A stretch of 64,000 nt of DNA from Kineothrix sp. MSJ-39. Lineage in GTDB: Bacteria > Bacillota > Clostridia > Lachnospirales > Lachnospiraceae. The translations under genes were made by a program, and so were the position numbers. Positions 11,045-56,190 of this stretch are shown here, piece by piece (positions within the stretch are counted from its first letter, which is position 1; each line of letters begins with the position of its first letter). Below the pieces are notes generated by a model. The model searched no databases, was not told where the DNA came from, and saw only the letters and a program-made list of their open reading frames with translations. The stretch is taken from positions 62,001 through 126,000 of the forward strand of contig NZ_JAHLPN010000005.1 in the NCBI RefSeq assembly GCF_018917935.1, read 5' to 3'.

Positions 11045-11890
11045 TCAGGCTTTTCCATTCGAACCGAATAATAAAATCTTGTCACGGACAACTTCTTTCA
11101 TGGCATCGATCTCATACGGAATGAGCCCCATCATAGACTTTGCTCCTGCTGCAAGTCCCGCTTCAATACCACGCTTTCCAGCCTTATCGATGTCCGTAAA
11201 GATATTGACCTTGGCAACACCTTCCTTGACAGCCGTCTTAAAATCTGTATCGGAAAGCCCGCTGCCGCCATGCAGCACAAGCGGAATCCCTGTTTTTCCC
11301 GCGATCACACGAATGCGGTCAAAATCCAGCTTTGGCGGGAATGCATAATCGCCATGTGCGTTACCGACTGCTACCGCAAGAGAATCCACGCCTGTCCGTT
11401 TTACAAAATCTGCGGCTGTTTCCGGATCTGTAAAATAATCACTCGGATTTTCCAGTTTGCCTGCGCCGGCATTATCGCCGACATGCCCCAGCTCACCTTC
11501 TACCGTTCTGCCCATTGCATGACAGATCTTTACCATTTCAGCCACCTTTTCAATATTCTCCTCATATGGAGCGGTAGAGCAGTCATACATAATAGAAGTG
11601 AAACCGAGCTCCAGTGCCTGCATACATTTTTCAAAGGTCAGACCGTGATCGTAATGTACACAGACAGGCACACTTGCCTTTTCTGCCATCGGAATCAGAT
11701 ACTCCGCTACTCTTGTCATTTCCATAGCAGGCAGCAGGACTTCTGCCGTTCCGACCATGACCGGAGCTTTCAGTTCTTCTGCTGTTTCAATAATGGCTCT
11801 TGCCATCTCTACATTAACCGCATTAAAAAATCCTACGCCGTAACCGCCCTTCTTTGCAGGCAGCAGGACATCATTCATATTGGCTAACAT
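11045..11890 (-). CDS. Class II fructose-bisphosphate aldolase family protein
   Basis: A 281-residue class II (zinc) aldolase, length normal for the KbaY/FbaA/IolJ group. Visible features are GFFNAVNVEMARAI at the N-terminus, the zinc site HYDHG near residue 82, EGELGHVG, VAVGNAHG and the phosphate loop LHGGSGLSD. It would cleave a phosphorylated ketose to dihydroxyacetone phosphate and an aldehyde. Upstream on the same strand are a PfkB kinase and a sugar isomerase, which together make an isomerise-phosphorylate-cleave pathway. The exact sugar is not clear. An unusual 75-bp repeat array separates it from the kinase. The start ATG at 11890 follows AAGGAGGAG. Confidence 0.9.
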   Translation of the reverse strand: MLANMNDVLLPAKKGGYGVGFFNAVNVEMARAIIETAEELKAPVMVGTAEVLLPAMEMTRVAEYLIPMAEKASVPVCVHYDHGLTFEKCMQALELGFTSIMYDCSTAPYEENIEKVAEMVKICHAMGRTVEGELGHVGDNAGAGKLENPSDYFTDPETAADFVKRTGVDSLAVAVGNAHGDYAFPPKLDFDRIRVIAGKTGIPLVLHGGSGLSDTDFKTAVKEGVAKVNIFTDIDKAGKRGIEAGLAAGAKSMMGLIPYEIDAMKEVVRDKILLFGSNGKA

Positions 11891-11910
11891 CTTTTCTCCT
11901 CCTTACATAT

Positions 11911-12285
11911 GTGGAACCTCTCGCATGTTTAATCGCTGCGCGATGCGAGAGGCTACATCATGCATCTAACGATGCATGACATTTTGTGGAACCTCTCGCA
12001 TGTTTAATCGCTGCGCGATGCGAGAGGCTACATCATGCATCTAACGATGCATGACATTTTGTGGAACCTCTCGCATGTTTAATCGCTGCGCGATGCGAGA
12101 GGCTACATCATGCATCTAACGATGCATGACATTTTGTGGAACCTCTCGCATGTTTAATCGCTGCGCGATGCGAGAGGCTACATCATGCATCTAACGATGC
12201 ATGACATTTTGTGGAACCTCTCGCATGATTGATTGCTGCGCGATGCGAGGGGCTGCATCATGCACCTATCGATGCATGACATTTG
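11911..12285. repeat. Five-unit 75-bp tandem array, each unit forming two hairpins
   Basis: Units start at 11911, 11986, 12061, 12136 and 12211. The first four are identical over 75 bp; the fifth differs at about seven positions and covers the last codons of the kinase gene. Each unit holds two palindromes: a 10-bp stem CCTCTCGCAT/ATGCGAGAGG with a 16-nt loop, and a 9-bp stem TCATGCATC/GATGCATGA with a TAAC loop. The array lies in the transcript between kinase and aldolase. It fills the 367-bp gap, which has no gene. Possible roles are an mRNA processing or stability element, translational uncoupling, or a protein or sRNA decoy. Confidence 0.95.
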
Positions 12286-13397
12286 TCCCAACCTGCGGCG
12301 ATCTTCTTCCGCAGCTCATCAAACGGCTTCAATCCGCTTAGTGCGTCATATTCCGTTACACAGCAGGCACCTGTCGCCGCCGCCAGATGCAGTGCTTCCT
12401 CCGGCTCACAACCTTCCAGCATGGCAGTCAGAAACGCTGCAATGCTCGAATCACCCGCTCCTGTCCCGGAACGTACTCTGTCCGGTACATAGCTTCTCTC
12501 AAAGATCTCTTTTTCTGCCCATGCATCTGCGGTAAGCTCTGCCTTACTGCCGATCTCCCGCAACGCAGCTTTGTCTGCCGTGCGCAGATACATGCCCGGA
12601 ACACCGCATTTGATCAAAAGTACCTTTGCCCCCAGCTCCATACACGCATCTGCAAGAGGTCTGATATCTTTCTCCACATCCAGGATTTCCGTGATATCAC
12701 GTCCGCCTGCCCTCTCCTGCCATGCATGAAACCGCTCACGATCCAGCATAAAGCAAAGTTCTTCCACGCTTGGGACAAAGAAATCCACAAAAGGCAGTAC
12801 ATTTTTCAGAATTTCTTTCCAGTCAGCCTGTCCTGCCGGTGCATTTTCATCTACCGCTGCCATATCCAGTGAAGTTGCCACGCCTGCAGCTTTTGCACGT
12901 TTCATCAGTGAAACGAGCTCTGCACCGTTGTCCGCATACATTTCCGGCATTAGCGGTGGGTAACCAAAGTGGAACAACGCTGCTTCCTCCAGTTTTTCCT
13001 GTGGAATATCCGCTGCCTTAAAATGACGGTTTGCCCCCGCATTATGCAAAAAGATGCGGTCGATCCCCGGAATTGCAAGCACGACAGAATAAGAGGTCTC
13101 TTCCCCCTCTTCTATCAGCATATCCGTATCCGCATCATGTTTTTTCAAAATATCCAGGATCATATTGCCAAAAGCATCTTTTCCGACCTTTCCCATCAAA
13201 GAGACATCAGCGCCAAGCTTCTTCATGGCAAGCCCCGTATTGGCAACACTGCCACCTGTATGTACATCAGCCGCGCCAACCTCCAGAAGCTTTCCGGGGG
13301 ATAGGATCTCCCCCGGATGCTGTACTTTTCTGTCTGGAAACATCGGTGTGATATCAAGGCAGATATGACCTGCCGCGATTACCTTCTTTTTTTCCAT
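12258..13397 (-). CDS. PfkB-family carbohydrate kinase
   Basis: A 379-residue ribokinase/PfkB sugar kinase. The N-terminal GG motif (HTGGSVANTGLAMKKLG) and the C-terminal ATP/catalytic motif GTGAGDSSIAAFL (Asp is the catalytic base) are both intact. It is longer than usual for the family (about 300-330) because of an N-terminal insert around residues 20-40 and extra loops. It starts 2 bp after the isomerase stop and precedes the aldolase, so it probably phosphorylates the ketose made by the isomerase. The last codons and the TGA lie inside the diverged fifth unit of the 75-bp tandem array, so array growth began at the end of this gene. Confidence 0.9.
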   Translation of the reverse strand: MEKKKVIAAGHICLDITPMFPDRKVQHPGEILSPGKLLEVGAADVHTGGSVANTGLAMKKLGADVSLMGKVGKDAFGNMILDILKKHDADTDMLIEEGEETSYSVVLAIPGIDRIFLHNAGANRHFKAADIPQEKLEEAALFHFGYPPLMPEMYADNGAELVSLMKRAKAAGVATSLDMAAVDENAPAGQADWKEILKNVLPFVDFFVPSVEELCFMLDRERFHAWQERAGGRDITEILDVEKDIRPLADACMELGAKVLLIKCGVPGMYLRTADKAALREIGSKAELTADAWAEKEIFERSYVPDRVRSGTGAGDSSIAAFLTAMLEGCEPEEALHLAAATGACCVTEYDALSGLKPFDELRKKIAAGWDKCHASIGA

Positions 13398-13399
13398 AC

Positions 13400-14434
13400 T
13401 TATTCAATCCCCATCAGTAAATTCATCACATACATTTCAAGTGCTTCGAAGTCTCTGTTTTCCACACATTTCTTCTGGAACTCATAGTCAAATCTATCTA
13501 CCTTTTCTTCCAGTGCCTTAAAGATCTTCAAGCTGTTTTCCAGATGCTTATAGCTGTCCTCGTCCTTTGTGGTACGCATTGCTTTTACATCCAGTCCGAC
13601 ATATTCACCATGGCTTCCATAGCCGTTTTCTTTCAGTACCTTTACCTGATTAAAGGCAGCACGCAGATTTTCTACGCCGAAGGATTTATCCTGATCGTAA
13701 CGGATTCCGTTCTGGTCATTTAAGTGCACTGTCATCAGCTTGCCCATTGCAAGTGCAAAACCGATCTCATTTGCCGGATCCAGACCTGCCAGGATCGCAT
13801 GTGCGCTTTCCAGATTACCGCCGACACGGGAAGGATCAATCGTAGCTGCTGAAATTGCCATGACATGCCCCATTGTACCACAGATGCTTCTGTCGATTGG
13901 TTCATTTGGTTTTGGCTCGATGCAGACACGGATCTTCGGATCATATTCAAGCATCTTGTTGATCGCTTCTATCAGCATCTTGGTTGCCCATACAGGAGAT
14001 TTTGACTCTGCACATAAGGTACCTTCTCTTGCCAGCCAGAGCACGATCATATCTGTGCCAAGCTCATTTGCAATATCAATAGAACGGTAAGCTCTCCACA
14101 TTGCATACTCTCTGTCTTCCTTGGAAGTGCTCATGAATCCGCCGTCCTGTGTATGCTCATCCATCCAGAGACGAGGTGCCACGAACTCTGCCTTTAAGTT
14201 GTACTTGTCTAATGTTTTCTTTAATTCTCTTGCTTTTTCCCTGATCTCTTCTTCTGTGTAATCATTGATGTTCGGTACTGCGTCATCATCATGGAACTGC
14301 ACTGCAGAGAATCCAAGCTCTGCAAATTTTTTATATTTTTCCTCTGCCGGAATATCTGCTCTTGTTGCCGGTCCGTAAGAATCTGCTCCCGGATGTACGT
14401 TCCATGGTCCTACTGAAAATTTAAACTGTGACAT
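13400..14434 (-). CDS. Xylose isomerase-like TIM-barrel sugar isomerase
   Basis: A 344-residue protein resembling a short xylose isomerase. Visible blocks are VQFHDDD, VLWLAREG (compare WGGREG in XylA), RVCIEPKPNEP, GNLESAHAILAG and HLNDQNG, which carry the metal and substrate ligands of the fold. XylA proper is usually longer, so the substrate may differ. I start it at the ATG at 14434, which follows AGGAGG; an upstream TTG in frame would bury that ribosome site. It is the first gene of the isomerase-kinase-aldolase operon, divergent from an AraC regulator. The pathway sugar is unknown: a pentose, hexose or deoxy sugar would all fit. Confidence 0.82.
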   Translation of the reverse strand: MSQFKFSVGPWNVHPGADSYGPATRADIPAEEKYKKFAELGFSAVQFHDDDAVPNINDYTEEEIREKARELKKTLDKYNLKAEFVAPRLWMDEHTQDGGFMSTSKEDREYAMWRAYRSIDIANELGTDMIVLWLAREGTLCAESKSPVWATKMLIEAINKMLEYDPKIRVCIEPKPNEPIDRSICGTMGHVMAISAATIDPSRVGGNLESAHAILAGLDPANEIGFALAMGKLMTVHLNDQNGIRYDQDKSFGVENLRAAFNQVKVLKENGYGSHGEYVGLDVKAMRTTKDEDSYKHLENSLKIFKALEEKVDRFDYEFQKKCVENRDFEALEMYVMNLLMGIE

Positions 14435-14568
14435 ATTGTTTTCCTCCTTTTCCAATCATACTGCACGCGTTGTATTCTATATCCTCCGGGTATTACCGGA
14501 GTTGTTTTTGATGTATTTATCCTACTATGGAACGCAGCTTTTGGCTGTTACAAGTTTAAGGAAAAAAC
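14435..14568. promoter_or_regulatory. Divergent control region of the sugar operon and its AraC regulator
   Basis: This 134-bp gap must hold both promoters. A 6-bp hairpin CTCCGG/CCGGAG (14484-14501) lies in the sugar-operon leader. No strong -35/-10 pair is obvious for the sugar operon, consistent with an activator-dependent promoter. For the regulator, a candidate -10 TATCAT (14591-14596) with a weak -35 lies just inside its longest reading frame. Confidence 0.4.
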
Positions 14569-40789: not shown

Positions 40790-42295
40790 TTATTTTTTTC
40801 GGTATCGTCTATCACGGTTACTACCGATAATTTCAATATGGTCGGAAAGACCTTTTAAAATATCTTTTGTTCGACTTTCTTTCAAACCTAACAATTCACA
40901 GAAATCCCAAATACCATACTCTTTTCCATCTTCCATAAATTCAAGAATTCTATCATATTGCATTTGAGTTTTCTTAGTCACTTTCTTACCGCCGCTTTTT
41001 ATCGCCGTTTTTTTATCGCCGCTTTTTATCGCCGCTTTTTTATCGCCGCTTTTTTTGAACGAAAGCGACAGTACCGTTCTATCAGGATCAAATCTCTCCT
41101 CAATCACCGGTTCTTCTAGACCTTCATCTGCCCAAACATTAAAGATATTCGGCACACCACTTCCAGCACGTTCACCGATATTGATAAGATTAAACATCTT
41201 CATAAGTGCCTTGTTTCGCGGATCGGATTCACCGCCAAGACGCATCTGCTTTTTACCCGTTCTGATATAACCGGGATTTGCCAAAACCAGCTTGTCCGGC
41301 TCTTTTCGAATAACAATGCCACGCAAGCCATGATAATCTGCATTAATTAAACAGTTTGCCAATGCTTCGCGAATTGCCTTGTGTACCGGCGTATCGTCAA
41401 CACGCTCACCACCGGACATTTTGAATGGCACCTTAACATCTTTGATAATTTTGTTATAAACTCTGAAATAAAAGTCGCACACATTTCCGGACCATTCACC
41501 GGAACTGGACTGCAATCTGTCACTCCAGCGCGTAGTAGGATCTAACTCTTCTCTATAATCCAAGAAATACTCAGGGAAATGACGAACAATATTATACTCA
41601 TCCCCGAACATCAACATGCCCGCTGCCGTAGGATGCAACCTTCCATCTTCCTCAGAAATTGCAGCCGCACCAATGCTTCGCAAGTATTCATGATCACTCA
41701 AACGTTCAAATGGATGTCCTTCTTTTAATGTACGATGACTGTTGCGATATCCATGAATCGTATCATAATTCAAATCTTCCATATGAACCTTGTCCAGCAC
41801 TTCCATATCCATGGTACGCTCAGTCTGATCACGGAGCATTGTTTTTACCTGCAGTCGGGTACAGTGATAATCGCCCTCATAATTTCTGCGGAATGTACCA
41901 TTAAAAATATCATTATTAATGTACACCGGCTTCTGCTCGCGCTTTGCCATCGGCACATAAATGACCATAATGACATCCTTATTATCACCAACCTCATATA
42001 TCTGTACATCATCTTCTGACAGGAGATTGATACTTACCTTCTTAGAATTGTTCATATTATCCCAAAATTCTTTACGAAGTTTAGATGCATTCTGAAGACC
42101 AGTGGTTCTCCAACTACCATCCTTATTTTCTTTGACACCAAGAATAATAACTCCGCCATAGCAATTTGCAAAAGAAGAATAGGTATCCCACAAAGAAACT
42201 GGCAATCCACCTTCTGCTTTTTTCACTTCTCTTCTGTTATCTTCTCTATATTCATCAAACTGTGAAAGGTCAAAAGTATTTTTCAATGGGCTCAT
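40790..42295 (-). CDS. AlbA_2 (Schlafen-like)/HATPase putative transcriptional regulator with repeat tract
   Basis: 501 residues. N-terminal AlbA_2/Schlafen-like domain (about 10-145; EVKKAEGGLP, FANCYGGVIILGV). Next is an ATPase-like C-terminal domain of the HATPase_c_4 type (about 300-410; REALANCLINADYHG, GERAGSGVPNIF). A Lys-rich spacer made of a 9-residue repeat KSGDKKxAI (about 413-435) leads to a winged-helix end. Proteins like this are annotated as putative DNA- or RNA-binding regulators, and some relatives occur in defence contexts. The repeat is coded by 13- and 14-bp units rich in T runs and is prone to slippage. Confidence 0.85.
   Translation of the reverse strand: MSPLKNTFDLSQFDEYREDNRREVKKAEGGLPVSLWDTYSSFANCYGGVIILGVKENKDGSWRTTGLQNASKLRKEFWDNMNNSKKVSINLLSEDDVQIYEVGDNKDVIMVIYVPMAKREQKPVYINNDIFNGTFRRNYEGDYHCTRLQVKTMLRDQTERTMDMEVLDKVHMEDLNYDTIHGYRNSHRTLKEGHPFERLSDHEYLRSIGAAAISEEDGRLHPTAAGMLMFGDEYNIVRHFPEYFLDYREELDPTTRWSDRLQSSSGEWSGNVCDFYFRVYNKIIKDVKVPFKMSGGERVDDTPVHKAIREALANCLINADYHGLRGIVIRKEPDKLVLANPGYIRTGKKQMRLGGESDPRNKALMKMFNLINIGERAGSGVPNIFNVWADEGLEEPVIEERFDPDRTVLSLSFKKSGDKKAAIKSGDKKTAIKSGGKKVTKKTQMQYDRILEFMEDGKEYGIWDFCELLGLKESRTKDILKGLSDHIEIIGSNRDRRYRKK
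40991..41056. repeat. Short tandem repeat within the AlbA/HATPase gene
   Basis: Alternating 13- and 14-bp units of the form GCCG(C/T)T(5-7)ATC, about five in a row. A pair makes 27 bp and nine codons, so loss or gain of one unit shifts the frame while a pair keeps it. Confidence 0.85.
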
Positions 42296-55995: not shown

Positions 55996-56069
55996 TTTTT
56001 TACCTCCTTTTAGATTTGCTGTCGTCTGGAGTCATAGCCTTTTAAACGAGTGCGTGATACGCTATAAAA

Positions 56070-56190
56070 AGCCTCCCGAAAACGGAAGGCTAAACATTCA
56101 AACTAACTATTGAATCTTTCCCTCGGCAGGCGATACACTTACGCTCATCGAGCACCTGCTGTCTTCGGCATGATCTAAAACGACCTTGTA
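56070..56190 (-). promoter_or_regulatory. L10 leader RNA with attenuator hairpin
   Basis: On the minus strand the block GACAGCAGGTGC ... CGCCTGCCGAGG (about 56119-56165) matches the conserved ribosomal protein L10 leader. It is followed by a terminator-like stem AGCCTTCCG/CGGGAGGCT (56070-56091) and TTTTTATA. L10 or its complex would bind the leader and favour termination. The rplJ start is about 75 nt further on. Confidence 0.82.

Follow-up and report, generated by a model that had tools for sequence, protein, structure and literature searches.

REPs that carry a GTAG tag are bulged palindromes located downstream of genes, and their stems occur with alternative complementary bases (PMC3733652). 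In E. coli, neither the GTAG tag nor the unpaired bulge can be dispensed with for REP recognition (PMC8266576). REPtrons can vanish by deletion, and CGTC REPs exist without a dedicated transposase (PMC3733652). Neither Firmicutes nor Clostridia are mentioned in the text of PMC3733652 and Lachnospiraceae are not mentioned in that of the RepRanger survey, while a search of the open-access literature for REP or MITE repeats of Lachnospiraceae returned nothing relevant. Here, we have analyzed an array of double-hairpin units in Kineothrix sp. MSJ-39, a member of this family, and consider it probable that the unit is a REP-like miniature non-coding mobile DNA repeat, which was inserted at the end of a kinase gene and then expanded locally in tandem.

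The array lies in a window of 64,000 nucleotides, the whole stretch of DNA that was analyzed, where Tandem Repeats Finder places it at 11910-12284 (period 75, 5.0 copies, 97% match, score 701). It is composed of five 75-bp units arranged head to tail, with the minus strand as the sense strand as in the surrounding operon, although this number was read from a 54-contig draft assembly, and short-read assembly may give a wrong count of identical copies in tandem. Unit 1 (12210-12284), next to the kinase gene, differs at seven of 75 positions from the other four, which are identical to each other: unit 2 (12135-12209), unit 3 (12060-12134), unit 4 (11985-12059), and unit 5 (11910-11984), next to the aldolase gene. 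Repeat finding and unit comparison thus agree with the preliminary description, which had reported four identical units and a diverged one between kinase and aldolase, each with two palindromes (found in all five); only its coordinates, 11911-12285, were shifted by one base. Since whole units are identical and unique spacers are absent, the pattern of short identical repeats and unique spacers seen in CRISPR does not apply.

On the minus strand, each unit reads AAATG, hairpin 1 (TCATGCATC..GATGCATGA), a single T, the GTAG tag, hairpin 2, and TTCCACA. Hairpin 2 consists of CCTCTCGCAT, an inner hairpin CGCGCAGCG, the bulge ATTAAAC, and ATGCGAGAGG. In unit 5, hairpin 1 (TCATGCATC, loop, GATGCATGA) is located at 11958-11979, a position equivalent in all units, the tag between the hairpins (GTAG here, GCAG in unit 1) at 11953-11956, and hairpin 2, with a 10-bp outer stem, an inner stem closed by a GNA triloop, and a bulge on the 3′ side, at 11917-11952. 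No window-wide excess of GNA-triloop hairpins was seen. Elsewhere in the window, a short tandem repeat of CTTTTTTATCGCCG (approximately 5.5 copies) is present at 40981-41055 and a ribosomal protein L10 leader (RF00557, 70.9 bits) at 56056-56186.

The operon on the minus strand encodes a xylose-isomerase-like TIM-barrel protein (13400-14455), a PfkB-family sugar kinase (12258-13397) and, beyond the array, a class-II fructose/ketose-bisphosphate aldolase (11045-11890), whose ATG lies 19 nt past the array; the gene for an AraC regulator is divergent. The kinase stop codon at 12258 falls within unit 1, in accordance with the overlap that had been described before. The kinase ends in ...AAGWDKCHASIGA*, the final nine codons (K through stop) being within unit 1, whose hairpin 1 contributes the C-terminal residues and the TGA stop codon; the terminal octapeptide is KCHASIGA, and its K could be ancestral. 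Orthologous kinases end in GWKKTNNREVR*, GWEKN*, GWEKA*, GWEKSS*, GWEKVTM*, or GWQKA*, and no unit was found at their junctions, where only a short gap is present if the aldolase gene comes next; this comparison rests on orthologues of 53-67% identity and concerns presence or absence only. The unit-free junctions, together with the kinase tail and stop in unit 1, suggest that one copy landed at the 3′ end of the kinase gene, which thereby gained a new stop codon. This copy would then have been duplicated in tandem, with the kinase-proximal copy diverging, and a later copy would have been amplified recently to give the four identical units, for which replication slippage or unequal recombination may be the simplest route. 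The earlier proposal that the array grew from the kinase end by recent duplication holds for its recency, given the four identical units, and for its origin at the kinase 3′ end, given the unit-free orthologous junctions, but needs refinement as to direction: the identical units are the aldolase-proximal ones, which places the latest expansion at that end, after unit 1 had diverged. Taken as a whole, the array is most likely a tolerated mobile insertion followed by slippage.

The preliminary description had also proposed that single units be looked for in the genome, and dozens were revealed by DNA search and covariance models. In the 2.99-Mb genome of the strain (54 contigs), DNA search detected the unit at 13 other places, with stem sequences that differ between copies and retain their self-complementarity. 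A first covariance model, built from four copies of this genome, gave 56 matches in it at E<=0.1 and matches in 14 of 299 genomes of Lachnospiraceae; the true double-hairpin carriers are fewer than 14, because several of the weakest matches are to other elements that have no more than the bulged hairpin in common with the unit. A second model, built from 51 members of seven genera, found 45 copies in the same genome at E<=0.001 and further copies in seven other genera of Lachnospiraceae (23 in G224, 10 in G282, 16 in G087, 8 in G117, 12 in G252, 10 in G265, and 71 in G108), and none in the sole congener searched, G001, whose genome is 84% complete. In an order-wide draw of 295 genomes with stricter filters (E<=1e-5), the genome of the strain alone passed. 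Mobile DNA would be expected to show such a patchy, high-copy distribution. A search with a strict hairpin-1 pattern gave no indication of a viral or wider origin, with no match in viral_contigs or genome_contigs. A similar bulged core (CCAT-stem-GNA-stem-ATTTTGCATGG) lacking hairpin 1 was observed at eight loci (L053, L054, L055, L056, L057, L064, L065, and L067) of genomes G119, G290, G164, G230, G084, and G292, inside other elements flanked by sequence of the GTTACTGTTCA / GTGAACAGTAAC type; the bulged hairpin core is possibly a module common to several dispersed repeat families.

Of 41 unit clusters, 12 have their start close to an upstream stop codon, at -26 to +4 nt from it. Between co-oriented genes, 15 clusters are in sense and six in antisense orientation (p = 0.08); four of the six antisense clusters lie inside a larger second dispersed element, without which the ratio becomes 15:2 (p = 0.002), all orientation calls being based on simple open-frame picking. 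Seven genera together have 16 direct arrays of 2-5 units, 15 with a step of unit length; one array, in G224, has four copies at an 84-bp step. All 16 are head to tail, with no inverted arrangement among them, and the family habitually duplicates locally. In the other genera, the top-ranking Pfam families in 50 proteins encoded beside the units included neither a transposase nor a shared gene class.

The second dispersed element ('GCAATCGATAGTGTAGNCGACCGAGATTT...AAATCGCAGGGNAGNCAAACGTGATTGC') is 129-130 nt in length, or 154-215 nt if its apex contains a nested double-hairpin unit, and is present in the same genome at L028, L029, L032, L033 (two copies), L034, L035, L039, L150, L151 (two copies), L152, L153, L154, and L155; it has no Rfam match. 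Of the 15 copies read, 14 are enclosed by complementary arms that score 14-20 points (null maximum score 10), differ in sequence from locus to locus, and mostly have A/T runs alongside; the arrangement resembles a bidirectional terminator with the element as its loop. Terminator loops may be its insertion sites, or the variable outer stem may belong to the second element itself. At the 3′ end of serA (L033), two copies occupy the place of a plain terminator-like hairpin (AAAATCCTTCCC...GGGAAGGATTTTTT) of the congener (L156, G001:C1:69000-71000). Insertion into hairpin loops as a rule for the double-hairpin unit was rejected: only L017 and L068 lie between inverted arms above 99% of the null, with L033 and L036 near it, and loop insertion fits the larger second element, not the double-hairpin unit. 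Moreover, a small palindrome of the GTCGCATATTTGCGNAGCAAATGTGCGAC type recurs (L023:1501-1612, L016, L002), in L023 within the hairpin-1 loop of a unit. The units at 1501-1578 of both L016 and L019 have common flanks on both sides (TTTCAACCGAGCGTA ... AGAGAAAAACAGAAGCAGCATAGCTG), and therefore both may have moved within a larger unit.

The fold of the unit is strongly conserved. In an alignment of 48 distinct members, which was fitted to the structure of the model and hence favours it somewhat, standard pairs fill 97.2% of the pair cells (26-38% paired in slid-structure controls), and two-sided changes occur at 24 of 27 pairs. The covariation score is 0.645, compared with 0.169 for shuffles, none of which (0/500) reached it, and at most 0.075 for slid structures. 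The GYAG tag is present in 47 of the 48 members, the hairpin-2 loop is GNA in 39 with N free, and the 3′ bulge of hairpin 2 is kept across the family. GNA loops are the form that gives very stable DNA mini-hairpins.

Conservation of this kind raises the question of whether the units act as functional RNA in the kinase-aldolase mRNA, stabilizing or processing the transcript or binding a regulator, with selection on the RNA fold keeping the pairs. The array sits between operon genes, its minus-strand RNA is predicted to fold at -189.9 kcal/mol (shuffles -120.5 +/- 5.5, z = -12.6), and the sense-orientation bias of the units, which an RNA role would predict too, counts against our reading to that extent; in addition, roles in mRNA stabilization have been proposed for REPs (PMC3733652). 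By analogy with those proposals, a strong transcript fold may possibly affect RNase access or the kinase:aldolase ratio. However, some copies are antisense or between convergent genes, copies elsewhere flank unrelated genes with no common function seen, and unit 1 carries pair-breaking changes. A known RNA family was ruled out, as the units had no Rfam match at the gathering score and only chance matches at a relaxed E-value.

The mode of sequence change is the main argument against the RNA fold as the conserved object. RNA normally drifts via G-U pairs, and a folded single DNA strand is less tolerant of G-T. One-sided and two-sided changes number 9:294 in the family, leaving out two positions at the feet of the stems that are always G-U, versus 67:235 in the lysine riboswitch (p ~ 1e-13), a single control RNA family from 28 genomes of the same bacterial family. 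Similarly, G-U makes up 1.4% of the family pairs versus 8.3% in the riboswitch, excluding its invariant G-U pairs and a poorly aligned helix (p ~ 7e-15). Among mismatches, 16 G-U versus four A-C lean slightly to the sense strand and are too few to weigh. Because one-sided and G-U changes are nearly absent, unlike in the riboswitch control, it is more likely a DNA than an RNA structure that is conserved, and the family does not display the covariation with G-U intermediates typical of RNA. The RNA-level roles put forward initially (RNase blocking, a decoy for a regulator or sRNA) are not borne out by covariation of this kind, nor by neighbouring genes that share no function. An RNA role for the array is possible but unsupported, and we regard it as unlikely that RNA function explains the family.

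If the repeat is DNA, it might be an ordinary GTAG REP moved by a Y1 tyrosine transposase (a true RAYT/TnpA-REP system) that was recently lost or missed. The GYAG tag beside a bulged palindrome, the gene-end location, and the sub-families with alternative stems are as in GTAG REPs (PMC3733652, PMC8266576), and deletions that remove the transposase have been described (PMC3733652). However, a search with PF01797 (Y1/RAYT) in the genome of the strain and 21 others does not support RAYT as the mobiliser: it is absent from the genome of the strain, G224, G282, G087, G252, and G108, which make up six of the eight copy-rich genomes (the remaining two have either a single IS200-like gene or fragments), and was detected in seven of eight copy-free genomes, a convenience set (Fisher p = 0.04). 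The units also form direct repeats only, without REPIN-like inverted pairs. A RAYT-driven origin therefore appears quite improbable.

The pairing could also be kept mainly by template-switch correction during replication, without recognition or function, so that the family would be a mutational by-product. Template switching creates and maintains stems, and switching from arm to arm alters both arms together (PMC8794818), which would account for two-sided changes without intermediates. On the other hand, unbiased arm copying should erase the 3′ bulge, which is kept along with the GYAG tag and the head and tail motifs, and some 50 dispersed copies would be left unexplained. Because plain palindrome correction would erase the bulge, recognition of the fold is the likelier constraint, and we consider a pure by-product very doubtful. 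A wrong unit number through misassembly, conceivable for four identical copies in a 54-contig draft, is extremely unlikely, as independent arrays of 2-4 units exist in six other genera and short-read assembly tends to collapse identical repeats rather than multiply them.

We accordingly return to a REP-like mobile DNA repeat, each 75-bp unit of which would be one copy with hairpin 1, an unpaired GYAG tag, and a bulged hairpin 2. Its mobility is suggested by presence and absence relative to orthologues, with no target-site duplication defined. What is conserved would be the folded single DNA strand, probably via recognition by a single-strand DNA-processing enzyme, and template switching between hairpin arms may help to keep the arms matched. 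More broadly, we tentatively suggest, at somewhat less than even confidence, that Lachnospiraceae harbour a class of mobile double-hairpin DNA with a GYAG tag that is undescribed and does not depend on RAYT; it would spread to gene ends and multiply in situ into direct tandem arrays, and its 'RNA-like' covariation would arise in the DNA itself, through recognition of the single strand, template switching from arm to arm, or both. REP-like elements would thereby be extended to this family in a form without a known mobiliser, and therefore a new single-strand DNA-processing enzyme may await discovery. The case is also a cautionary one: very strong base-pair covariation is usually regarded as proof of a functional RNA, and here the pattern points to DNA. 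In addition, local arrays alter gene ends, as in the kinase C-terminus, and could vary between strains.

Compared with known systems, the unit most closely resembles the GTAG-tagged REPs (PMC3733652; E. coli REP/BIME; Pseudomonas REPINs), being a short palindrome whose stem is bulged and bears an unpaired tag at its foot, dispersed over gene ends in tens of copies (45-56 in the genome of the strain, mostly extragenic), with the tag at one palindrome end and sub-families with alternative complementary stem bases. It differs from them in the second hairpin that abuts the tag, the unit length of approximately 74-85 nt, the exclusively direct arrays, the absence of RAYT from the genome of the strain and most other carriers, and the scarcity of G-T pairs, which PMC3733652 reports as frequent. 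As no RAYT gene flanked by the repeat was found in the genome of the strain, and no inverted palindrome pair forming a larger hairpin, as in REPIN/BIME, was found among the 16 arrays, the repeat is called REP-like as a working term rather than a RAYT-REP. Like the ends of IS200/IS605 elements (IS608, ISDra2), which are recognized by Y1 enzymes, it has subterminal hairpins and unpaired bases at the stem, reminiscent of the single-strand recognition of IS ends (PMC8266576); unlike them, it has neither a transposase gene nor a pair of left and right ends. With MITEs, ERIC, BOX, and NEMIS/Correia it shares a non-coding, intergenic, dispersed, and gene-proximal character, and it is set apart from them, by description rather than by sequence, in having no bounding terminal inverted repeats or recognized parent IS.
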